DNA of 32,388 nt from Bacteroidia bacterium (GTDB taxonomy: Bacteria > Bacteroidota > Bacteroidia > CAILMK01 > JBBDIG01). The notes under the pieces were generated by a model that did no database searches, had not been told where the DNA came from, and worked only from the letters and a program-made list of their open reading frames with translations. This document shows, piece by piece, positions 9,995 through 26,123 of the stretch (position 1 is its first letter; each line of letters opens with the position of its first letter). Location of the stretch: positions 1 through 32,388 of the forward strand of contig JBBDIG010000027.1 in NCBI GenBank assembly GCA_040880525.1, given 5' to 3'. The position numbers were made by a program, and so were the translations under genes.

Positions 9995-11011
9995 ATGACC
10001 CAAACTAACCAGACAACCCAAGTGTTGGATGCCTGGGGTTCTTTGTTGAATAATCAACTTCAGAAAGGACAACTGGACCACGCAACTCAAAAAGCCCATG
10101 AGGCAAATGCCTGGTTCACGCCAGAAAACCTGCGTTTTTCCTTGCAATCCATTATTCACAATTTTCTTAATTCTGATAAGTTGGATAACTGGCTTTCAAC
10201 TTATGACATTCCGGAAAACCACGCGCCCAAAACCGTAGCCCTTGTAATGGCCGGCAATCTCCCGCTCGTGGGACTTCATGACCTGCTTGCGGTAATGGTG
10301 ACCGGCAACCGGGCAATGGTAAAAATGTCATCCAAAGACCAGATTTTGCTGCCGGCATTGCTTGATGAATTATTTGAGATAGAACCTGCCTGGCGGGATA
10401 CAATTTCGTTGGTAAAAAAACTGGAGAATTTTGATGCCGTGATCGCGACCGGTTCAGATAATACTGCCCGTTACTTTCATTATTATTTTGGAAAATACCC
10501 GCACATCATCCGGAAAAACCGCAACTCAGTTGCCATCCTCACCGGTAACGAAAGCGAGAAAGACCTCCGGGGATTGGGTGAGGATATGCTGCGCTATTTT
10601 GGTCTCGGTTGCCGCAATGTCTCCAAAATATATGTACCGGAAAACTTCAGCTTTATTCCGCTCTTCGAAGCGATAGAACCAATGGCTACAATAGGTGACC
10701 ATAACAAGTATTACAATAATTATATGTTTCACAAAAGCCTGATGCTGATCAATAAAGTCCCACATCTGGATAATGGATTTTTATTGCTGAAGGAAGATGA
10801 GCAAATTGCTTCCCCTTTATCTGTAGTACATACCCATCACTACAAATCGCTTGACGAGGTAAATGCTGATATAGCCGCCAAAAAGAAACAAATACAGGTA
10901 GTAGTGGGATATGAAAAACCCGGGGAACTGCTGCCCGGTGAAGCACAACAACCTGAATTATGGGATTATGCTGACAAGGTTGACCCTCTCAACTTTCTGC
11001 TGAACCTCTAG
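9995..11011 (+). CDS. Acyl-CoA reductase (LuxC family)
   Basis: A 338-residue member of the aldehyde-dehydrogenase superfamily related to LuxC, which reduces fatty acyl-CoA (or acyl-protein thioester) to the aldehyde with NADPH. Visible features are the nucleotide-binding segment VALVMAGNLPLVG (near residue 80), a VKMSSKDQ segment, the IATGSDNTARYF region near 150, and GLGCRNVSK with the likely catalytic Cys206. The length is shorter than Vibrio LuxC (~480), as is usual for the Bacteroidota branch. The physiological substrate is unknown; no luxD or luxE is near. The 3' end overlaps the convergent aroA by 23 nt. Confidence 0.85.
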   Translation: MTQTNQTTQVLDAWGSLLNNQLQKGQLDHATQKAHEANAWFTPENLRFSLQSIIHNFLNSDKLDNWLSTYDIPENHAPKTVALVMAGNLPLVGLHDLLAVMVTGNRAMVKMSSKDQILLPALLDELFEIEPAWRDTISLVKKLENFDAVIATGSDNTARYFHYYFGKYPHIIRKNRNSVAILTGNESEKDLRGLGEDMLRYFGLGCRNVSKIYVPENFSFIPLFEAIEPMATIGDHNKYYNNYMFHKSLMLINKVPHLDNGFLLLKEDEQIASPLSVVHTHHYKSLDEVNADIAAKKKQIQVVVGYEKPGELLPGEAQQPELWDYADKVDPLNFLLNL

Positions 11012-12221
11012 CTGGCGATCTTTTCAAACGTTCCAGTTCCCGCCAGAATCCCGGAAAGGATTTCTGCACAACCTCCGGATCATCAATTTTCACGTTTGGA
11101 TATATCATGCCGAAAGGCGCAAAGCTCATGGCCATCCGATGATCATTGTAGGTGCTGATTCGCACTGGATGCCTCGGGACTTCTCCAAAACTCAGGCTTT
11201 GCAGTGAATCAGCCCCGGCTTCAGTTTCTGTTCCCAGTTTGCGAAGCTCGGTTTCCAGAGCCTTCAATCGGTCGCATTCCTTGACGCGAAGATTCTTTAT
11301 GCCCTTTAGGTGAAATGGAATTTTCATCAGGCTGCACAGCACGGCAAATGTCTGCGCCAGATCAGGATAATCAGTCAGATCCTTATTGAATTCTGAAGGA
11401 AAGTTGGTATTTGATTTTTGAATAAAACATTTACGGTTGAAATACTGAGTTTTTATGCCGAACGCTTCCATCCATTCCACCATGATGCTGTCACCCTGCC
11501 AGCTTTGGGGATGCAGGCCCGGCAGCAGTATTTCAGCTTTTCCGGCCAGTGCGGCAAGTGCGTAAATATAGGATGCAGCCGACCAGTCATTTTCTATGAG
11601 CATAGGCCGCAAAGTCACTGGCTGCTCCGGCACATCTATCCTGTCTATGCTCCTTTCGAATTCTACTCCGTGATATGCCAGGAGCCGCAATGTCAGCTCT
11701 ACGTAAGGTTTTGAAACCTGATCGCCTCCTATTTCCAATTGCAGCCCGTTTGGTAAAAAAGGCGCTATGAGCAATAATGCGCTGATATACTGGCTGCTTA
11801 TACCGGCTTTTATTTTAACACTTCCGCCCCTCTGTATTCCCTGAATTATTTCTACCGGAGGATAACCTTCCTTGCCGTGGTAGCGAAAATCTGCACCCAA
11901 TTGCCGAAGCGCATCCGTAAGCTGTGCTACAGGGCGCTTCTGCATTCGCTTGCTTCCAGTGAGGATTTTCTTCATGCCTTTCGCAGCAAAACATGCAGTA
12001 AGAAAGCGGAAGGCAGTACCGGCATTTTCCAGGTCAATTTCATTGTTTTCGCTTGTCAAGGCGTTTAGCATCAACAGCGTATCCTGCGCTTCTGAAAGGT
12101 TTACAATGGCAGCATCATTATCATCCGCCATAAATTGAAGTGCAATCATGCGGTTGCTCAGGCTCTTGGAAGCCGGTAAATTCACCGTTCCCGATATTGA
12201 TTGAAAAAATGGCTGGCTCAC
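10989..12221 (-). CDS. aroA: 3-phosphoshikimate 1-carboxyvinyltransferase (EPSP synthase)
   Basis: Transfers the enolpyruvyl group of PEP to shikimate 3-phosphate, the sixth step of chorismate synthesis. The 410-residue protein shows the N-terminal PASKSLSNRMI substrate motif, the AGTAFRFLTA motif that contacts PEP, SSQYISALLL in the middle, KECDRLKALE and the late YNDHRMAMSFAP motif. The start is GTG at 12221, overlapping the aroB stop as GTGA, so translation is probably coupled. Length is slightly under the ~430 of proteobacterial enzymes. Its last 23 nt are shared in antisense with the acyl-CoA reductase gene. Together with aroB it makes a two-gene shikimate operon. Confidence 0.94.
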   Translation of the reverse strand: MSQPFFQSISGTVNLPASKSLSNRMIALQFMADDNDAAIVNLSEAQDTLLMLNALTSENNEIDLENAGTAFRFLTACFAAKGMKKILTGSKRMQKRPVAQLTDALRQLGADFRYHGKEGYPPVEIIQGIQRGGSVKIKAGISSQYISALLLIAPFLPNGLQLEIGGDQVSKPYVELTLRLLAYHGVEFERSIDRIDVPEQPVTLRPMLIENDWSAASYIYALAALAGKAEILLPGLHPQSWQGDSIMVEWMEAFGIKTQYFNRKCFIQKSNTNFPSEFNKDLTDYPDLAQTFAVLCSLMKIPFHLKGIKNLRVKECDRLKALETELRKLGTETEAGADSLQSLSFGEVPRHPVRISTYNDHRMAMSFAPFGMIYPNVKIDDPEVVQKSFPGFWRELERLKRSPARGSAES

Positions 12222-13261
12222 GCTGTTCTGCTTCCGGTTATTGTTATCTGTTTCAATTCCTTCTTCAGATCTTCAGTAGTCAGTTCCACACCGGTTTCGC
12301 AACTCCCTATTTTATTGAGAAGCGAAAACCGGAACGTACCTAGGATATTTTTTTTATCAGCTTTTAAAAAAGAAAACAGTTGTTGTGGTTCTGGAAAATT
12401 TAAAACCGGAAAGTGTTGTTTAATGAAATTCACGATGGAGTGAAATTCTTCCGGAGGCAGGCCGGAATAGGCAACTGACAAGGCGGCTTCTGCCATCATT
12501 CCGGCAGCTATGGCTTCTCCGTGCTTTAAGGGTGTAACAGCCTGCTCCAGAGACCAGCTCTCCAAAGCATGGCCTATGGTATGTCCGAAATTCAATTTCA
12601 GTCGCGCACCCTGCTCAGAGAAATCTTCCTTCACCAGCCGCTCTTTCACCTCCATAGATTGCTGAAGCAACGGCTGAAGGCTCTCCTGCGACACTGCTGC
12701 TGATTGAAGTTTTTCCCACAAATCCCGGTCTGCGATAAGCGCATGTTTCACCATTTCTGCAAATCCTGAACGCAATTCCGGAACCGGTAATGTATGCAGA
12801 AAACCTGGATGCACTACCACCTGATGTGCTTCGCTAAATGTTCCAAGCTGGTTCTTATAATGCCCAAGGTTCAGCCCTGTTTTCCCGCCCAAAGCAGCAT
12901 CTGTCATGGCCATCAGCGATGTTGGAATATGGATAAGGCGAATTCCTCTTTTGAAGATCGCAGCCGTAAACCCGCCAAGATCGGTTACTACTCCTCCTCC
13001 CAGATTTAAAAGCACCGATTGCCGGTCTGCTCCTTTCTCCATCATTTCATGGCAAAGGCGCAGGCAAACCTTCATTTCCTTGGAAGCCTCTCCGGCTTCA
13101 ATTTCAAGGTGATGAAATTGCCGTGGCTTCAGGTTGCGCTGCAGGATGGGGAGGCAGTGCCGTGTGGTATTCTTATCCGTCAGCACAAAAACCGAAGAGG
13201 GATTCAGCTCTTGCAGCAACTTGTCCGGCATCTCCAGCCGCGGATCCATTATATAGCCCAT
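12218..13261 (-). CDS. aroB: 3-dehydroquinate synthase
   Basis: Converts DAHP to 3-dehydroquinate using NAD and a divalent metal, the second shikimate step. The 347-residue protein carries the NAD/metal signature GGGVVTDLGGFTAA, the IPTSLMAMTDAALGGKTG motif and the FGHTIGHALE motif with metal-binding histidines, preceded by the Glu of GFAEMVKHALI. The start at 13261 (ATG) has a second Met at residue 5. It is the first gene of the aroB-aroA pair, ending in a 4-nt overlap with aroA. The 93-nt gap to the VOC gene on the other strand should hold the promoters of both, but I see no clear match there. Confidence 0.94.
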   Translation of the reverse strand: MGYIMDPRLEMPDKLLQELNPSSVFVLTDKNTTRHCLPILQRNLKPRQFHHLEIEAGEASKEMKVCLRLCHEMMEKGADRQSVLLNLGGGVVTDLGGFTAAIFKRGIRLIHIPTSLMAMTDAALGGKTGLNLGHYKNQLGTFSEAHQVVVHPGFLHTLPVPELRSGFAEMVKHALIADRDLWEKLQSAAVSQESLQPLLQQSMEVKERLVKEDFSEQGARLKLNFGHTIGHALESWSLEQAVTPLKHGEAIAAGMMAEAALSVAYSGLPPEEFHSIVNFIKQHFPVLNFPEPQQLFSFLKADKKNILGTFRFSLLNKIGSCETGVELTTEDLKKELKQITITGSRTA

Positions 13262-15684: not shown

Positions 15685-15706
15685 ATGCCTCGACTTACAA
15701 CCTTAA
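15665..15706 (+). CDS. Putative 13-codon leader ORF overlapping the kinase start
   Basis: ATG at 15665 stands 4 nt after GGAGG (15656-15660), an unusually good Shine-Dalgarno match for this phylum. The frame encodes [13 protein letters not shown] and stops at 15704-15706, overlapping the first 22 nt of the sensor kinase gene in another frame. It could couple translation to the kinase gene; it could also be fortuitous. Confidence 0.3.
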
Positions 15707-18700
15707 CAATTCTTCTTTGCCTTTTGCTGTCATCCGCGGCAGGTGCAACTTCCGGAATAAAATTCAGGCACCTCACCATTGAACATGGGCTCTCTCAGAA
15801 CACGGTCCATTCCATAACGCAAGACCGCCAAGGCTTTATGTGGTTTGGCACACAGGATGGCCTTAATAGGTATGACGGCTACTCTTTCAAGCACTTCAGA
15901 CATGAGTTTGATGACAGCCTCAGCATCTCGGATAATTTTATTCTTTCGCTTTTTGAGGATTCCAAAGGCCAACTCTGGATAGGAACCGATGGCGGAGGCC
16001 TGAACCGCTATGACGAAAAGAAAGAAAGTTTCGTGAGGTATCTTCAACCTGGTGTACTTTCAGGACAGGAGCAGGCCATTAAGATCACCAATATCGTAGA
16101 GGATAACAACGGAAATTTATGGCTGGGGTCTCAGGGCAACCGTATCATCAAATTCAATCCTTCGACAGGTTCACATAAAGTTATCAGGCTTACCCCTGCA
16201 AAGCAGAAAGAGGCCATGGGAGTAGAGGAGCAGATCAAGCAAATACTCCCTGATAGCAAAGGAAATCTTTACATCACGAGCTATGGGAATGGTCTCTTTT
16301 ACTTTGATCCGTCTAAAGAAAAGATAATCCGGCACTGGGAAATTTCAGACGGCTTGCTGGACAACCGCGTGAACTATCTTTTTCTTGATGAAGTAAAAGG
16401 TGAGTTGTGGATCACGAATCGTAAAGGCCTTACGTTTTTTAATTTACGGGCACAGGAATTTAGCCGCTATCCTCTTTCCTCGTCCTATGGTGGCCATTTA
16501 GAACTTTTGCGCATTCTTCCGGATGGCAACAACGGCTTATGGCTCAGCACGGAGATTGGCGGCCTTTCACATATAAACCGCCTAACACATGAAATTACAT
16601 TAGCAGAAGCTGCCGTTAAAGAACCTGGCCTAAAAAAAAGCGTGGCCGTTATCAGCATGTTCCAGGATCGCTCAGGGTTGGTTTGGCTTGGCAGCAACGG
16701 AGAGGGACTCAAGACGTTTCGCCAAAACCGGTTGTTTGGATTTTATCCTTCGCTTCCTTATGCTTCACTCGTCAACAATGGAACCCGCAGTATCCGGTCT
16801 ATCCTTAAAGACCATGAAGGCATGTTGTGGATTGGCTCTTATCAGGGTTTGGACAAATACAATCCGAAAACAAGGGAAATTACACACTACGGCCAATATC
16901 CTTCTCAGCCTGGCACATTAAAAAATTTAAATATATACTGCCTATATGAAGATGACCAGAACCAGTTGTGGCTTGGGACAGAAGGAAGTGGCATGGCTAA
17001 GCTCGATAAGCGTTCAGACCGGTTCATATTTTATGATGTTGCGCACTACATGCAGGACAGCATTGGGAGTGGCTTTGTATTCGACATTACGCAGGACAAC
17101 AACGGAATATTCTGGATAGCCACAATGAACGGGTTGGAGGAATTTGATCCTGTGCAGGGCAAATTCAAACGACATCTGCAAGGCAATGAAAACCAAGATC
17201 AGCAGATGGTATGGCAGGTGGTCCCGGATTCTGAAGGCAGGCTATGGCTGGCAACTGATGGCGGCCTGCAGATATATAATCCCGCAACCGGTGAGAAATT
17301 ATCCTACAGCATAAAAAACGCATCTGAACTAGGATTGCGGGTTAACCGGATCAAAACAATATTTTTTGATGCTGAAGGAATACCCTGGCTGGGAACAGAT
17401 GGGAAGGGCTTGGTGAAGGTAACGCTTAACACCAACCATGAACCAACCGGGTTCAGGCATTACACCACGAAACAAGGGCTGCCAAATGATGTGGTATATG
17501 GCATCCTTGAATCGCAACAAGGGGATTTATGGCTAAGCACCAATCTGGGCATTGTTCGGTTCACACCAGAATCAGGGATAGTCGCCCACTTTGAAGAAGG
17601 AGACGGCCTGCAGGGAGATGAATTCAATTCGGGTGCTTATTTCCAGGCAGAGGATGGGCAAATGTTCTTTGGTGGAATTAATGGTCTTAATTCTTTTTAT
17701 CCGCATCAAATCACCCCTTCTTCTGTAGTAGCTCCTGTTGTCATCACAGCCGTTATTCAACTTAAAGGCAGCGAGAACAAAAGGCTCGAACCCAAAAACA
17801 AAAAAATTACGCTTCCTTACGGGGAGAGCGTTGTAATGGTGGAGTTTGCAGTAATGGATTTCGTGAGCCCCGAAAATAACAGCTATGCATATAAGCTGGA
17901 AGGATTAAATAAAGAATGGATATATCTGGGAAATCGCAGGAATACCATTTTTACTAACCTGGAACCCGGAGAATTTACCCTGCAACTGAAAGGCCGAGGC
18001 CATGACGGCCAATGGAGCGAAGAAATAGAATCGCTCACCATAACAGTAGTCCCACCATTTTGGATGACCGCATGGTTTAGAGTCCTGTGTATTTTACTTT
18101 TCCTGGCTTTGCTGGTATACCTCTTTTATTATAATACCAAAAGAATAAGACGTCAGAAGCTGAAACTGGAAAGAGAGGTAAACTACCGGACCCAGGAACT
18201 AAACCGGCAAACACGAGAATTGAAATCGGCAAAGGAAAATGCAGAAGAAGCAGTGCGTTTTAAATCTGAATTTCTTGCTACAATGAGCCATGAGATCAGA
18301 ACCCCGATGAATGGCGTGATCGGAATTCTCAATCTTTTGAAAACTACCGAACTGAATGAGGAGCAACGGGAATATCTGCATCTGATCCAAAGCAGTGGGG
18401 AAAATTTAATGAATATCATCAATGATATTCTTGATTTCTCAAAGGTGGAAAGTGGGAAAATGGAATTGGAAGAAGAGCCCTTTGATATGAAGCAGTCGGT
18501 GTGCAATACCATAACCTTGTTCAAGGAAATAGCTCATCAAAAAGGACTAAAGGTCAATTATGTATACGCTGAAGATGTACCGGAGGAATTGATAGGTGAT
18601 GGAATGCGGCTAAAGCAAATCCTGAATAATCTGATCAGCAATGCCATCAAATTTACTAAGGAAGGAGAGGTAAGCCTGGAAGTGAAAAAAGTTGAGGAAA

Positions 18701-19464
18701 ATGATCTTGCTCATACCAATCTTATTAAGCTTGAATTTAATATAAAAGACACGGGCATTGGAATTTCTGAAGAAGGCCAGCAAAAATTGTTTAAAGCATT
18801 CAGTCAGGCACACTCTTCCACATCAAGAAAATATGGTGGTTCCGGCCTGGGCCTGGTGATTTGCCAGCGGCTGATCAACCTGATGGGCGGCACTATATCC
18901 TGTAAGAGCGAAGAAGGCAAAGGTTCTGTCTTCTCATTTACAATTGTGGCCCGGGTCTCCCCCACTGCTGTAAAAAAGGTGGGAAACGCTACCGGATCCG
19001 TCAAAAATATTGCAGCCATCTTTGATGACAAGCTTGGGAAAAATTACCCGATTTCCATCCTGCTGGCTGAAGATGCCAAAATGAACCAACTGGTGATCTT
19101 GAAGCATCTCAGTAAGTTTGGGTATGAAGCTGATGTCGCCAACAATGGCAATGAAGTGCTGGAGATGTTGAGCGAATTCCGTTATGACCTGATCCTAATG
19201 GATGCACAGATGCCTGAGATGGATGGCGTTGAAGCCACCCGCAGAATTCAGCAGAAATACGGAGACGGGTCTCCGGTAATTATTGCCATGACGGCCAATG
19301 CAATTGAAGGCGACCGGGAGCGCTATCTTTCTCACGGCATGGATGATTACCTGAGCAAACCTTTTAAAGTAGGCGATTTCAAAGCTCTGTTGACGCGTTG
19401 GGGTAAAGTCCTGAATAAATCAGCAAAACCTTCAGAAGAGAAGCACCGGCTCAAAGCGAGTTAG
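15685..19464 (+). CDS. Hybrid sensor histidine kinase with two-propeller sensor
   Basis: A 1259-residue membrane sensor. Residues 1-21 are a signal peptide. The periplasmic part (about 25-690) has 14 propeller repeats of the LWIGTxxGLxxYD type, enough for two seven-bladed propellers, followed by a Y_Y_Y domain (about 700-785). A single membrane helix spans about 798-818, then a coiled linker. The kinase has HisKA with His869 in [10 protein letters not shown], an N-box [15 protein letters not shown] near 976, DTGIGI and GGSGLGL. A receiver domain ends the protein with phospho-acceptor Asp1173 in LMDAQMP, plus the conserved MTAN and SKPF. Unlike Bacteroides HTCS proteins it lacks a C-terminal AraC helix-turn-helix, so output must go to another protein. 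No partner regulator or polysaccharide locus adjoins. Its stop overlaps the convergent stop of the next gene. Confidence 0.93.
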
Positions 19465-20195
19465 CGGCCTGACTTCTTGTAGATGATCGGCTGGTTGTTG
19501 ATAACCTGAACCTGTTCCGATCCTTTCCAAACCAGGTAGGCGGTTTCAAATATCTTCCCGCTTTCATCGCGCAATTCCGGGGTGTCGCCCAGTGTATTGA
19601 AAAAAAGCACACCTCCGGCATTCAGGAGTTTCTCTAATTTCCTCAATACCCCACGTTGCTGTAACGGCTCGGGGATCTTTTCCTCCAGGAATACATCCAC
19701 TACGATCAGGTCAAACGTCAGGTTCGTGCTTCGAATGTAATGTACCACATCATCGGTTATCACCTCAGTGCCGCCAAGTTTCTTCAATCCGAAATACTTT
19801 TCAGCCAGGTCTTTCATCACCGGATCGGCATCTACACCGGTTATGGATATTGAAGGATCTTTTTCCTTGAGAATAGTGGCCACATTGCCCACGCCAAATC
19901 CCAGGATCAGGGCAGTTTTTGTGTTTTCGTGTGGAATGCCCGTTTTTTGAAATGCCAGACGAAAGAATGCGTCCAGTCCTTCAAAGGCATAATTAACGCG
20001 CTCGCCATCCAGAATGAACTTTCCCTGAGACAACTTAACCACGAGTACCGGATGCCATTCAGACCGGACATATTCCACCGGCACTTCTTTAAAGTAGCTA
20101 AGCCAGCGCTTTACGAACAATGGCAAATACACCAATGACAAATCGTTTTTGGAAAATAAACTACCGGAAAATGACTTTCCTGACAGAAACGGCAC
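19461..20195 (-). CDS. Spermidine-synthase-like methyltransferase fold protein
   Basis: A protein of up to 244 residues with a Rossmann fold of the spermidine synthase type. The nucleotide loop is [15 protein letters not shown] (near residue 94), followed by the acidic strand end VDAD and by DLIVVDVF near 160. The Asp pair typical of true aminopropyltransferases is not clear, so the activity may be methylation or another reaction. The 20195 start is a GTG located 35 nt inside the upstream T9SS gene, and the first residues are simply that gene read in another frame; TTG at 20141 or GTG at 20132 would begin just after its stop and fit the family better. It is the last gene of the leftward envelope cluster. 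The TAA overlaps the sensor kinase TAG within TTAG. Confidence 0.75.
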
Positions 20196-22104
20196 CGGTA
20201 GCCTGTGAAGTAGCCTTTATAAGATAAAGTCCTTCCGGATAGGAAGAAACGGAGAAAGAAGAGAAACCAGGCGAAACCTCCGATTGCAACACCCTTCCCT
20301 GAACATCCAACAACTCGAGCCGGTATTTTCCTCCGGCTGCAATTCTCACATGTAGCCGGTCAGTTGCCGGATTTGGATATACTTCCACCTCGTACCCAGG
20401 CTCTGTAGGAGTTGTAACGTCCACAAGAGCTGAATCTCCAAAAACCGGCCTGATCATCGGAGCACCATAAGTCACAGAAGGTTTCCAGGTATCCAATACA
20501 TTGAAAAAGAGATTGGAATTAATGGTTCTGTCCCGGAAAAATCGCTGATAATTCAAATCCATCCCAATGTTTATAAAGAACTCCTCACCATGGTTTAATC
20601 CTACGTAAAAGGTACCGTTAACAGGAACCGGTTCATTCAGAACATACAGATGAAATCCGTTCCTCCATCCGGTATAACGGATATTAACATTCTCCTGCCT
20701 GTACAACTCCACATCACTGTTGGCCGGTTGGTTCACGGGCGAGATATGTTCATATACCACAAGGTCAATAAACCGGTTCGCCAAAGTGGTATCTGCTTTA
20801 TTAAAATGTATAGAAATTCCACGCAACGTCTCAGGTTCATTAAGCCGAAACCGGAGCGCTATTTTCCCGCTTGAATTGGCTAATCCATAACCGGCTTCGG
20901 GGGTTCCATCGTCATACGCCAGGTAATTGTAAAACCGCTGGAGGCGAAACGCGGTATCATTTCTCATCACAAAATCCGGAACTGTCTGGGCATGGCTTTT
21001 CACCATCACCTCCACGAGATCACCTGCGGGAGGATTTGCAAAGGTGAAGGGATTCACATGCACCCGCTTTACGTTTCCCGGATTAATGGTATCCGCAAGA
21101 ATACTCAGCCTGTCCAGCAGCACAGTGCCGGTCTGATGATCAGTTAGCGAATATCCGCGATTAAAGGTCCGGGCTACATCCGCCAGGTTGCTTACCTCCA
21201 TTGGAAGCGAATCAATTAACTCCGCATCAGGATTAGACGCAAATTGCTTCCAGGGCATTGAATAATAGGTTTTTAAAATACTATGTACCGGGTAAACGGA
21301 TGAGAGATCTTGAGCCGGTTCATTCTCCGTCCGGTTCTCGTTGAGTTCTACATAGTCCACATGCCAGATATCATAAGATCCGGAGCGTCTTCCGTTATGG
21401 TTTACGCGGCTGCCGTAGCTTATAAATCGAAACTGGAAGGCATTATGAAACCAATTAGTATCTGCCAAATCTGTAAGTTCAATAAATACCTGCTGAAATT
21501 CCTCGGTTCGCCCCGGGCCTGCGGCTGCAAATACCTGAATCCAGTCTGTGCTGTTATACACGCCTCCCGCAAGGAAAGAGTCCGGCTTAAATTCCACCTT
21601 CAGCGAATCGAGCGTAAACGTGTTTGAAGCGCTGCCATCCGGAGGATCGCCAATACCACCCGGCTGATAAAAAAAGCTGAACCAGATATCATCACCGCCT
21701 CCCCTTCCGCTAAGATTGATTGGCGCAGAAGTGAGCGTATCCAGAGCGCCTGCGGCTGTATTGCCACCGCTGTAAATAATTCCGCGGCCATCGTAACCAT
21801 CAAAGGTGGCCACGCCAAGCGAAGGTGGTTCTACGGCCAGATGATCATTAAACAACACATAATCATCCATCCAAAGGGAATCAAAATGATAATGGGGATA
21901 ATTTGAAAAATCATCGAAGAATGGCAATTCAATGGTATCGGTGCTTTGCTTCAGCACGGGTTTCGGGCCACTGTTGGCGTATTTCCAATAAAGAATCTCC
22001 TGATATTCGAGCGGCCTCACCTCTTCCTGGCCTTTCAGGGAAATGGGTAGAAGGAAAATTAGGATGCCGGCCATAAAAATAAAGGGACGATATAAGCTAT
22101 TCAT
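20161..22104 (-). CDS. Large secreted protein with T9SS sorting domain
   Basis: A 647-residue exported protein. The start I choose, ATG at 22104, gives a signal peptide with hydrophobic core FIFMAGILIFLLP and a likely cleavage before QEEVRPLEY; the longer frame from 22182 overlaps the upstream PASTA gene and adds an unlikely basic stretch. The body (about residues 45-565) has an extracellular, Asn/Gly/aromatic-rich sequence with FFDDFSNYP near the N-terminus, a segment resembling secreted peptidase or jelly-roll proteins, but I name no domain. The last ~75 residues are a type A T9SS tail (YPNPATDRLHV, LLDVQGRVL, YPEGLYLIKA, basic end). It lies 28 nt after the PASTA gene in the same orientation and probably shares its transcript. 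Confidence 0.85.
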   Translation of the reverse strand: MNSLYRPFIFMAGILIFLLPISLKGQEEVRPLEYQEILYWKYANSGPKPVLKQSTDTIELPFFDDFSNYPHYHFDSLWMDDYVLFNDHLAVEPPSLGVATFDGYDGRGIIYSGGNTAAGALDTLTSAPINLSGRGGGDDIWFSFFYQPGGIGDPPDGSASNTFTLDSLKVEFKPDSFLAGGVYNSTDWIQVFAAAGPGRTEEFQQVFIELTDLADTNWFHNAFQFRFISYGSRVNHNGRRSGSYDIWHVDYVELNENRTENEPAQDLSSVYPVHSILKTYYSMPWKQFASNPDAELIDSLPMEVSNLADVARTFNRGYSLTDHQTGTVLLDRLSILADTINPGNVKRVHVNPFTFANPPAGDLVEVMVKSHAQTVPDFVMRNDTAFRLQRFYNYLAYDDGTPEAGYGLANSSGKIALRFRLNEPETLRGISIHFNKADTTLANRFIDLVVYEHISPVNQPANSDVELYRQENVNIRYTGWRNGFHLYVLNEPVPVNGTFYVGLNHGEEFFINIGMDLNYQRFFRDRTINSNLFFNVLDTWKPSVTYGAPMIRPVFGDSALVDVTTPTEPGYEVEVYPNPATDRLHVRIAAGGKYRLELLDVQGRVLQSEVSPGFSSFSVSSYPEGLYLIKATSQATGAVSVRKVIFR

Positions 22105-22132
22105 AGGACTGAGAAACGGTATTAAAAATAAA

Positions 22133-22945
22133 TTATTCTTCACCTGGATTTTCATCTTCCGGCATTCCATTTTGAAGTTCATAAACTTCAGGATCCATGA
22201 TCCAAATATCTATAACATCGCCAAGAGCAATTTTTCCAGAACCGGGTTGCGGCCGCTGACGATAAACAATTGCATCGGCAGTGTCAGTAACGCTGCCCAT
22301 CACAATTGGGTTTCCGATGTTTATTCCGGCACCTTTCAGCAGGAATACGGCTTCCTGATACCTCAACCCGGAAAGATTGGGTACAGTGATCTCGCTGTCT
22401 TTTAATCCATCGCCTACCACCAGATCAATCACAGAACCCTCCGCCACGCTGTCATTCTTCGTAATATCCCGGCCTTTATATTTCATACCCAAAACCAGAT
22501 TAGGCGCCCAATGCGGCACATATTCCAGTTCGCCTATCTTTAATTTTTTATTACGCAAAAGATCGCGGGCGTGCGTAACAGAAGAATTGTCAAGATTAGG
22601 AAGCCGGACTTTTGCCGGCTGCCCGGAATTCATCGTCAGGTAGATGGTTCGGTTTCGCTTCACTTTGCTGCCGGGCACCGGATTTTGTTCGATGACCGTA
22701 TTCAAAGGCAAGTCGGAAATATAAACGGTATCGAAAACCTTAAAATTCAGGCTCTTTGCCTCAATTGTTTCTTGTACTGCTTCGATGGATTTTCCGGTTA
22801 AATCCGGAACGGTAAGCGATTCACCATGATTGGTGTAGCTATCAAGAAACTGGAAAAAGAGGAACACGAGAAGTGACAAAAGGCCGATGGCAATCAGAAC
22901 ATTAATCCAGAATGCACGGCTGATCAGGAATTTGAAGAAGCTCAA
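22133..22945 (-). CDS. Membrane-anchored triple PASTA domain protein
   Basis: A 270-residue protein with a short cytoplasmic N-terminus, one membrane helix at about residues 11-33, and a periplasmic part of three PASTA domains starting near VPDLTGKS (residue 46), LPNLDNSS (115) and VPNLSGLR (190), each ending in the usual D/G-xVIDxxV or similar strand. PASTA domains bind peptidoglycan stem peptides or beta-lactams in other bacteria, usually as part of a Ser/Thr kinase or PBP, but here no kinase or transpeptidase domain is attached. The start is TTG at 22945, overlapping the stop of the ligase gene as TTGA, so translation is probably coupled. Its position next to a D-Ala-D-Ala ligase supports a role at the cell wall. 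Confidence 0.88.
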   Translation of the reverse strand: MSFFKFLISRAFWINVLIAIGLLSLLVFLFFQFLDSYTNHGESLTVPDLTGKSIEAVQETIEAKSLNFKVFDTVYISDLPLNTVIEQNPVPGSKVKRNRTIYLTMNSGQPAKVRLPNLDNSSVTHARDLLRNKKLKIGELEYVPHWAPNLVLGMKYKGRDITKNDSVAEGSVIDLVVGDGLKDSEITVPNLSGLRYQEAVFLLKGAGINIGNPIVMGSVTDTADAIVYRQRPQPGSGKIALGDVIDIWIMDPEVYELQNGMPEDENPGEE

Positions 22946-25656
22946 TGGGCGGTAGCTTTTAAAATGCCGAAATTTATAATTTTATCTAAAAACTCCTGGG
23001 GCTTATAACCATTAATAGCCGCCTGGTGAAATATGCACGTGGCAGGAGTAAGGCCGGGAAGCGAATTCGCCTCAATAAATACCACCTCCGTTCCTTCATC
23101 CTCATAAATGCGAACAAAAGCATCAATGCGGCAGTAGCCTTCAATTCCCAATTCTCCTGCCGCTTTTTCCAGTTGTTCCCGCACTTTGGAAGAAATCCGC
23201 TGATTCTTTTCCTTGTCGCGGTGAAAGCGGGCAGGCGTGATGTTCTGGCCCTCACCAGCAAGAAATTTTTCCTCGAGCGAAAGAATGCCTGCTCCCGCCA
23301 GCGCTTCAGAAGGTTCGAATACCTCAAACTGGCTTTCGCTTCCGATGGCTGGTTTTATCAGCATTCCTCCTGTTATTTCCAGGAATTGCTGCGCTCCGTT
23401 CCGGCTGATCAACTCCTCCACTATGAAATAGGTCTTTTGCGGAAATTCCTCGTTCAGCTTTAGGTGTAGCTGGCGGGCAGCTTTTTCCGGCAGAAGTTCG
23501 TCTTTCCGGAAAATGATCTCTGCGAAAAGCTTTAATTCATCTGGCGAGTCAATCTTCTTGACGGCTGAACTGCAGCCATCATCAGAAGGCTTTGCTATGA
23601 GCGGAAATGCTATCTGCTCCTCAATTTGCCCGAGCACCGATGCCGTATCGTCCTCCCAGCGTTTTTTATCAATAAAAATACTTTTAGGAACCTTGAATCC
23701 TTTTTCCTTCAGAATTTGATTAGTTCTGAATTTATCAATCGTGATCTGCGAAGACTCGAATCCGGAGCCGTTGTATGGGATCCGAAGTTCTTCCAGCTTT
23801 TGCTGCAGCGTTCCGTCTTCGCCTGGGCGGCCGTGCAATGCGATAAAAGCGAAATCAATATGCTTATTCAATTGTTCCAGCGGTATTTCCACAGGACTGA
23901 ATTCATATCCCGCTGAAGCATATTTTGCAGTAATATCCTCTGCTTCCCCAATAATTTTTTTAATGATAAGCGGGATAGAAAAGTGTTTAATTTTATGACG
24001 AATGTCGTCTGCGTTATCTTTCAGCAGCAGGTTAAGTGGAAGGATGTGAAATCGCATATCATCAGCCGAACCGGATAGAAACAGGGGTACAGGATCATAC
24101 ATTCCGAAGGATGCCAGCTTTTCAAAAACATTGCGGCCACTCTCCACGCTAATGTGCCGCTCCGTACTATAGCCGCCCAATATTACGCCTACCCGGGTTT
24201 TTTCCTGCACTTCCTTCCTTGTTCCGGCAATGGCTGTATCCAGCTTTTGCAGCAGGCTTTTAAGCGCAAGGGAGGAGAAGCTGAAACGCATTCTTTCCGC
24301 CACCGAAGTGCGGACAATATAGGTGAGAAACTGCGATGGACTCAACCCTATCTCAGCGGCCTGGTGAAAGAAAAATGAAGAAGGCAACATTCCTGAGGTC
24401 GTATTCGGATCATTGAGGTAAATGGTGCCATCATCGCCCAAAATGCCATCCAGCCTGGCGTAGACATTAAAATGAAAGTAGTCAAACAGCTCTTCACACT
24501 TTTGCCTGATCTCTTCAATCTTCTCATCCGGCAGTTCGATAGGTGTAATCTTGTTGCTGATGCCGGGCAGATATTTCGCGCGGTAGTCAAAGAGGTGGCC
24601 CTTCTTGCGGATTTCGGTTGGCGGCAGGGCCACCGGCCTCCCCTGCTCGTTTTGCACTACAATGCACGAAAACTCCTTTCCCTTTATAAATCGTTCAATT
24701 AATACGTGTGGCTCCGTTTGCAGGCTTTCGATAAATGCCTTTCCTTCTCCGGGGAGTTTATCCAGGAGAGTCAACAGTTCTTCCGGATGGTTGGCAATCC
24801 CAGGTTTTGAAACCGGAGAATTGCTTTCAATATCTGATACCTGCCATGTCACTTCCACCGGCAGGCCAATGCCTTCCTGAAAATCCGTCAGGCTTTTTAC
24901 AAGCTTTATTTTTTGTGCTTCGGTGAATTTATTCCATTGATCTAAATCAACGCTTTCTGTAAAAAAACAGCGGTATACAGCTTTTGTAAATTGCGCCTCA
25001 TTCGCTTCATCCAAAATCTGCACGCCTATGGAGGATCCCTGAGAAGATGCCTTTATCACAAGAGGAAACCCGAATCTTGCTATCGCTTCTTCATAAAATG
25101 GGTAATGATCTTCTGCATCAAGCCACTTCTGCCGGGGGATAACCAAATATTCAGGCGTAGCAAAATCTGAATTCTTCAAGAGACGCTTCTGCACCACTTT
25201 ATCAATACCGATGGCAGAAGAAAGAATTCCGGAACCGGTATAGGGAATATGATAAAAATCGAGGATGCCCTGGATAGTGCCGTCCTCACCGTATGGGCCA
25301 TGAAGTGTCAGGAACGCAAAATCCATTAAGCCGGCCAATTCTTCGGGTGATATTTTGCGGCCAATACTGGCGATCATCTCGTCCTGTTGCTTTTCGGTTA
25401 GCGGCTGGAGGCTTTCTATATATACATTGAATTCAGATGACGAACCAGGCAGGAAAGAGGTGGGCGGATAAAAATCGCGGATGCTTCCTTTATATAAATA
25501 TTGCCATTCCAGCAAAATGAAATTGCCCAGACTGTCAATAAACACCGGCACCGGCTCGAACAGGTTTTTTTCAATAATATCATACACCGTCCGGCCGCCC
25601 GCAAAGGATATTTCCCGCTCCCGGGATTTACCGCCAAGTAAAATTCCGATCCTCAT
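22942..25656 (-). CDS. Tandem fusion of two D-Ala-D-Ala ligase (ATP-grasp) units
   Basis: A 904-residue cytoplasmic protein, about three times normal Ddl length, built of two complete ligase units. Unit 1 (about 1-470): GGKSREREIS with catalytic Glu13, LHGPYGEDGTIQG, IPYTGSG, a KASSQGSSIG loop, omega-loop AKYL with Lys361-Tyr362, Arg401/Asp403, and metal segment LNDPNTTSG with Asp416 in place of the usual Glu and Asn418. Unit 2 (about 485-904): GGYSTERHIS with Glu499, ALHGRPGEDGTLQ, IPYNGSG, KPSDDGCSS, EEKFL with Lys797-Phe798, Arg843/Asp845, and IEANSLPG with Glu862 and Asn864. Each unit has an insert in its central ATP-grasp region, larger in unit 1 (about 80 residues). Ddl makes the D-Ala-D-Ala end of the peptidoglycan stem. 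Both units keep most catalytic residues, so both may act, with possibly different second substrates. The ATG at 25656 fits unit 1. Confidence 0.92.
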   Translation of the reverse strand: MRIGILLGGKSREREISFAGGRTVYDIIEKNLFEPVPVFIDSLGNFILLEWQYLYKGSIRDFYPPTSFLPGSSSEFNVYIESLQPLTEKQQDEMIASIGRKISPEELAGLMDFAFLTLHGPYGEDGTIQGILDFYHIPYTGSGILSSAIGIDKVVQKRLLKNSDFATPEYLVIPRQKWLDAEDHYPFYEEAIARFGFPLVIKASSQGSSIGVQILDEANEAQFTKAVYRCFFTESVDLDQWNKFTEAQKIKLVKSLTDFQEGIGLPVEVTWQVSDIESNSPVSKPGIANHPEELLTLLDKLPGEGKAFIESLQTEPHVLIERFIKGKEFSCIVVQNEQGRPVALPPTEIRKKGHLFDYRAKYLPGISNKITPIELPDEKIEEIRQKCEELFDYFHFNVYARLDGILGDDGTIYLNDPNTTSGMLPSSFFFHQAAEIGLSPSQFLTYIVRTSVAERMRFSFSSLALKSLLQKLDTAIAGTRKEVQEKTRVGVILGGYSTERHISVESGRNVFEKLASFGMYDPVPLFLSGSADDMRFHILPLNLLLKDNADDIRHKIKHFSIPLIIKKIIGEAEDITAKYASAGYEFSPVEIPLEQLNKHIDFAFIALHGRPGEDGTLQQKLEELRIPYNGSGFESSQITIDKFRTNQILKEKGFKVPKSIFIDKKRWEDDTASVLGQIEEQIAFPLIAKPSDDGCSSAVKKIDSPDELKLFAEIIFRKDELLPEKAARQLHLKLNEEFPQKTYFIVEELISRNGAQQFLEITGGMLIKPAIGSESQFEVFEPSEALAGAGILSLEEKFLAGEGQNITPARFHRDKEKNQRISSKVREQLEKAAGELGIEGYCRIDAFVRIYEDEGTEVVFIEANSLPGLTPATCIFHQAAINGYKPQEFLDKIINFGILKATAH

Positions 25657-26123
25657 AACTGCAAAGGTAAGGTGGAGTTTTGAGTGAATGTATCAACTGA
25701 TAACGCAGATAAGTGGTACAAGCTTCCAGGCAGGTGATGGGATCAATTAGGATTAAATATTTTGTAGAAAATGAAAGGTAGAATAAAGTGGTAATAATTA
25801 TCGCATATTTTGATTTTTGTTCAAAGCCCAAACTTCACGATAAAATTCAAGTATCTGAAATCTAAAAGAAAAGATTAACTGTGTTCATATTGTACCCAAT
25901 TACACGCCCGGCTTGCCAGATCAGGACAATCAATATTTAAAAAATAAATTCGTTTTTTATCCCTTTGGAATTAAGTATTAATCTTATAACCAAAATTAAA
26001 TGCAATTTGAAAAGAAAATATAAATAATGATTGAGGACTATTACCTCCGGTTGCTTTCGGAGAAGGCCGGTAATAATCTTTTGAGAATGCACTGCCAGCA
26101 AATTCAGGATGTTTTCTCATCCC
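25657..26123. other. Gene-free AT-rich stretch
   Basis: Apart from the ligase promoter at its left edge I see nothing functional here: no tRNA shape, long inverted repeat or convincing gene. Short open frames on both strands lack good starts and have no coding look. Confidence 0.6.
25662..25669 (-). promoter_or_regulatory. Probable -7 element of the ligase-PASTA cluster
   Basis: TACCTTTG on the minus strand is an exact TAnnTTTG match, followed by CAGTT and the ATG of the ligase at 25656. Transcription would start at or within 1-2 nt of the ATG, so the mRNA may be leaderless. A TTG at 25696-25694 is a possible -33 element at a long spacing. Confidence 0.5.

Follow-up and report, generated by a model that had tools for sequence, protein, structure and literature searches.

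Two D-alanine-D-alanine ligase modules with different conserved active sites, fused in one gene of Bacteroidia

The window, by which we mean the whole stretch of 32,388 nucleotides analysed here, is one entire contig of a 60-contig assembly of a Bacteroidia bacterium, and it carries on its minus strand a gene whose single open frame contains two D-alanine-D-alanine ligase (Ddl) modules. Ddl is an essential enzyme of cell wall synthesis and the target of D-cycloserine. The initial annotation had given the exact coordinates of the frame but no strand, which is minus. The gene, its parts and the genes that follow it are:

22942-25656, minus strand: double Ddl gene, an open frame of 904 amino acids plus stop, seen by Pfam and in full-length relatives
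24283-25656, minus strand: half 1 (residues 1-458), a Ddl with the canonical Glu15/Ser150/Tyr216 triad and Glu270 replaced by Asp
24568-24591, minus strand: omega-loop motif of half 1, FDYRAKYL (residues 356-363)
24202-24282, minus strand: linker (residues 459-485), mostly helical and poorly conserved (mean identity 0.18)
22945-24201, minus strand: half 2 (residues 486-904), a Ddl with intact ATP and metal residues and with Cys150, Phe216, His17 and Thr281
23248-23298, minus strand: omega loop of half 2 (residues 787-803), overlapping SLEEKFLA, with low model confidence
22133-22945, minus strand: next gene, a membrane-anchored PASTA protein, whose TTG start overlaps the ddl stop (TTGA)
20161-22182, minus strand: third gene of the run, a protein with a T9SS sorting tail, its role not linked to the ligase
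19461-20195, minus strand: fourth gene of the run, a spermidine-synthase-like methyltransferase, its role not linked to the ligase

The gene had been described as the first of a wall-related cluster, and this holds for the PASTA gene that follows it, but not for the two further overlapping genes in the ddl direction, which encode the T9SS-sorted protein and the methyltransferase. A PASTA homologue adjoins the fused ddl in at least 38 of 60 loci (a lower bound, since most fused loci have flanks of 1.5 kb; genome G220 is counted twice, as L070 and L079) and a single ddl in 17 of 39 loci, and this shared neighbour suggests that the fused and the single ddl are alternative forms at one ancestral locus. 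The sequence TACCTTTG sits 5 bases upstream of the ddl start codon (window 25656-25670) and resembles the Bacteroidota -7 element, TAnnTTTG, suggesting a very short ddl leader. An Rfam search of the window gave no match. Elsewhere in the window lie a hybrid two-component protein with regulator propellers, histidine kinase and receiver (15685-19464) and adjacent genes for EPSP synthase and 3-dehydroquinate synthase (10989-13261).

When the whole protein is searched, Pfam finds Dala_Dala_lig_N twice and Dala_Dala_lig_C in each half. Searched alone, each half also passes both Pfam cut-offs, with 90.7 and 110.2 bits for half 1 and 72.6 and 71.8 bits for half 2, so that the description of the gene as two fused Ddls is confirmed, and the sequences of solved Ddl structures align with both halves. 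In TIGR01205 (D-alanine--D-alanine ligase, cut-off 245.65 bits) the whole protein scores 369.2 bits, above the cut-off, while the separate halves score 222.8 (half 1) and 153.1 (half 2), both below it. The further claim of two full sets of Ddl motifs needs a correction: two complete modules are present, but the metal motif of half 1 reads NDPNTTSG, with Asp in place of Glu270, and the omega loop of half 2 reads SLEEKF instead of DYEAKY. The MurC-Ddl fusion (NCBIfam NF011171) likewise joins Ddl to a second wall enzyme, whereas the partner here is another Ddl; this family was rejected for our protein at 179.3 bits against a cut-off of 1015. As for misassembly, or the joining of two adjacent genes in this genome alone, we give it practically no credence, since full-length copies with 42-59% identity occur in many genera. 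These include one-contig assemblies (G276, G478) in which the full frame is present, and the earlier statement that the frame is not an assembly artefact stands.

The fused gene is widespread in the class. In a sample of 396 Bacteroidia genomes with completeness of at least 90%, it is matched at E<=1e-60 in 164 genomes and in 83 of 198 genera, with four of the 164 (family f56) holding a short form. Among 60 relatives, 32 (the window's own genome included) give a strong match (E<=1e-150), in 26 the sole match is a weak one, to a single Ddl of roughly 308-406 residues, and 2 have no match at the threshold. The phylum sample comprised 198 genomes, 49 from Bacteroidia and 149 from other classes. 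In the other classes there is exactly one N-domain match in 148 of 149 genomes and none in the remaining one, and two N-domains in one frame are seen in 4 of the 49 Bacteroidia (G000, G126, G220 and G232), with G244 holding a short form. For nearly all of these 49 genomes the listed completeness is 100% and the contamination 0; in the 396-genome sample, where many assemblies are fragmented and MAG-like, the fused type is more frequent. The double Ddl is carried by many uncultured bacteria related to common inhabitants of gut and soil. Both forms can occur within one group: in family f53 one genus (g82) is fused and several others are single, and the order to which the window belongs has three fused families (f1, f3, f4) and one with singles (f2). 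No double form was found in phages and viral contigs, and a plasmid search returned one short-form relative, from Bernardetia.

Each of the 70 fused genomes counted (51 genera) has exactly two N-domain matches, which share one frame of 880-1389 amino acids, and therefore the fused and single forms look mutually exclusive. The window's genome, too, has only two PF01820 matches. A second ddl there was looked for among the other PF07478 matches and rejected, as these are a 660-residue protein on contig C33 or frames without the N-domain. The C33 protein (L001:1420-3402) joins a methyltransferase to a Ddl-like ATP-grasp domain and has no Ddl N-domain. Both the recurrence of the fused gene in related genomes and the lack of a separate single Ddl, which according to the initial annotation would support an essential bifunctional enzyme, are thus borne out. 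Judged from the genome sequences, this bacterium and a large share of the class Bacteroidia have no D-Ala-D-Ala ligase besides the one that this gene encodes. Other unusual frames were met along the way. In G232 both Ddl halves and the PASTA protein form one frame of 1200 amino acids (L127:3242-6841), and two single Ddls (L121:3077-5908 and L122:2617-4815) carry N-terminal extensions (about 540 and 316 residues) without any Pfam match. The window's genome also has a MurF-alanine racemase fusion of 825 amino acids (L172:1081-3558, contig C39), so that two D-Ala-handling steps are fusion proteins in this genome.

A tree was built from 319 core columns of 20 fused proteins, 4 short forms, 41 single Ddl rows and E. 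coli DdlB. Both halves together form one clade (UFBoot 100), within which half 2 is a clade with support 100 and half 1 one with support 44, while the short forms nest in half 1 beside family f55 (support 92). The branches of the halves are long (0.82 and 1.09), hence where exactly the pair belongs among single Ddls is uncertain. The halves of the same protein share 22-29% identity (mean 25%). The single clade agrees with the earlier view of an old duplication with divergent halves; in phylogenetic terms, a Ddl gene was duplicated internally once, long ago, and one family later lost the greater part of half 2.

The active sites were compared in 96 fused sequences from 96 genomes (4 of them less than 90% complete), in E. 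coli K-12 DdlB numbering and at the catalytic residues of DdlB. This set excludes Bernardetia and the four short forms of f56, contig-end fragments (such as L036, L037, L039, L065, L066, L068, L069, L072, L078 and L081-L084), and part of the fused genomes of the 396-genome sample. Half 1 keeps Glu15, Lys97, Ser150, Glu180, Glu187, Lys215, Tyr216, Arg255, Asp257, Asn272, Gly276 and Ser281 in 96/96 sequences and Lys144 in 95/96 (Arg in one); Glu270 is replaced by Asp, still acidic, in 96/96, and Ser replaces Pro at position 275. In half 2, Glu15, Lys97, Lys144, Ser151, Glu180, Glu187, Lys215, Arg255, Asp257, Glu270, Asn272 and Gly276 are likewise present in 96/96, and four replacements are equally fixed (96/96 each): Ser150 to Cys, Tyr216 to Phe, Glu17 to His and Ser281 to Thr. 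Single Ddl rows have Ser150, Tyr216, Glu270 and Ser281 in 41/41 (40 distinct, as G030 is present twice with the same gene, L077 and L101), and their position 17 is variable. HMMER aligns the Phe of half 2 to residue 216 of 1iow, which by its PDB title is the Y216F enzyme. Compared with the single bacterial Ddl (TIGR01205; DdlA/DdlB), the fold and the ATP, metal and substrate residues are the same, most completely in half 1, whereas the differences are the two modules per chain, the Asp at position 270 of half 1 and the four replacements in half 2.

The two halves change at an equal pace, which argues against a decaying second half: mean pairwise identity is 0.527 for half 1 and 0.537 for half 2, invariant columns number 67/458 and 66/415, respectively, and half 2 is more alike than half 1 in 2795 of 4560 pairs. 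Another idea is that both halves make D-Ala-D-Ala, the duplication providing dose or a covalent dimer only and the residue differences being neutral tuning. Such an arrangement would suit a sole Ddl in which each half belongs to Ddl families. However, more drift or variation would be expected of redundant copies, and four acceptor-site positions of half 2 are fixed to non-Ddl residues in all 96 sequences, while three of them (150, 216 and 281) keep the usual residue in every single row, which makes this idea improbable in our judgement.

The structure model of the 904-residue protein has a mean pLDDT of 86.3 and a pTM of 0.86, with the omega loop of half 2 (787-803) below 50. The best fold match of half 1 is the Thermus Ddl with D-Ala-D-Ala (6u1f, Z 37.2, rmsd 2.0, 320 residues aligned). 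Half 2 matches VanA (1e4e, Z 37.0, rmsd 2.2, 320 aligned), the Leuconostoc D-Ala:D-Lac ligase (1ehi, Z 36.7, rmsd 2.7, 335 aligned) and the ordinary Ddl of Coxiella (3tqt, Z 37.0, rmsd 2.8, 324 aligned), and since these are tied, they say nothing about its product. In lactic acid bacteria, Phe or Tyr at position 216 decides between D-Ala-D-Lac (depsipeptide) and D-Ala-D-Ala (dipeptide) synthesis (PMC5996685). The Phe-type D-Ala-D-Lac ligases described there (Leuconostoc Ddl, lactobacilli) share Phe at DdlB 216 with half 2, but they are single-module enzymes, and half 2 departs further from Ddl at 17, 150 and 281 and scores 86.9 bits in NCBIfam NF000206 (D_ala_D_lac), far under the cut-off of 550. 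A switch to D-Ala-D-Lac accompanied by VanX was considered and rejected: the window's genome has 0 matches to the VanX-type dipeptidase family PF01427, and a wholesale switch is therefore unlikely.

Ddls are homodimers in which the N-domains take part in the dimer. Half 1 is very probably the housekeeping ligase, as it has the canonical site and is the half kept in the short forms, and it would join two D-alanines for MurF, as any Ddl does. Half 2 is its covalent partner, probably with altered specificity, and in a putative pairing it would permanently replace the second subunit of the usual homodimer. As the residues for acyl phosphate formation are present, half 2 may still activate a D-amino acid with ATP. 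Its Phe-type omega loop would then close over the second substrate, so that another acceptor is to be expected, either a hydroxy acid such as D-lactate, for which there is precedent, or a different D-amino acid. Of all steps, what half 2 produces is the least certain. Taken as a whole, this account of a sole Ddl from one internal duplication, with a D-Ala-D-Ala ligase in half 1 and a partner for a different acceptor in half 2, has in our estimate about an even chance of being right.

The short forms bear on what half 2 contributes. Four f56 genomes have a frame of 558-590 amino acids with half 1 intact and about the first 85-100 residues of half 2, without its catalytic motifs, and each genome has one Ddl N-domain match and no other. 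A 623-residue form, annotated as D-alanine--D-alanine ligase, is found in Bernardetia sp. Wsw4-3y2 (Cytophagales), and with it the N-domain remnant of half 2 spans 85-150 residues. AlphaFold2 gives the remnant a pLDDT of about 89-96 and the whole short protein a pTM of 0.89. As the short form is the only Ddl in f56, half 1 with the N-domain of half 2 is enough as the sole Ddl of the cell there, and the reaction of the lost catalytic part is dispensable in that family; in the model, the apparently folded remnant fits a structural role. Therefore, the "bifunctional" enzyme of the initial annotation has to be amended: half 1 does resemble an ordinary D-Ala-D-Ala ligase, but the acceptor site of half 2 is altered, though strictly conserved, and is lost in one family. 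Half 2 could even be a pseudo-ligase: able to bind ATP, and perhaps also D-alanine, it would form no product and would serve to hold or regulate half 1. The survival of its N-domain alone in f56 and Bernardetia would agree with this, as would the altered catalytic triad (Cys150, Phe216) and an omega loop that is the least confident part of the model. Against it, the tested phosphate, magnesium and oxyanion residues of half 2 are all invariant in the 96 sequences and its rate of change is no higher than that of half 1, and we consider a pseudo-ligase less likely than not.

Fused Ddl is known from plants, where two putative DDL enzymes are reported to be encoded by one fusion gene across the whole plant lineage (PMC9954125). 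The plant DDL (Arabidopsis, Physcomitrella) thus has two Ddl modules in one chain, as does the double Ddl of Bacteroidia; unlike the bacterial gene it is nuclear and plastid-related. Two further papers state that the moss Ddl is closest to the Fibrobacteres-Chlorobi-Bacteroidetes group (PMC9434261) and that plastid wall enzymes, a few excepted, came from bacteria other than cyanobacteria (PMC8227023). Among open-licence papers, searched by titles and abstract starts, we found no report of a bacterial double Ddl; the arrangement has so far been reported for plants. Only tentatively, and with the odds against it, do we suggest a two-product ligase, with half 1 making D-Ala-D-Ala and half 2 a different D-Ala-X through its Phe-type site, and as a further step that the fused chloroplast DDL of plants descended from the bacterial double enzyme.

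The unexplained fused chloroplast DDL now has a bacterial counterpart, in a group that had already come under suspicion as the donor. Of the Bacteroidia genomes sampled, two fifths have a double Ddl, in which a Tyr-type site and a Phe-type site are fixed next to each other; this pair might point to a second wall product or to a mode of control so far unknown. If the two-product reading is true, the envelope of these bacteria would contain a further kind of terminus or a further D-Ala compound.
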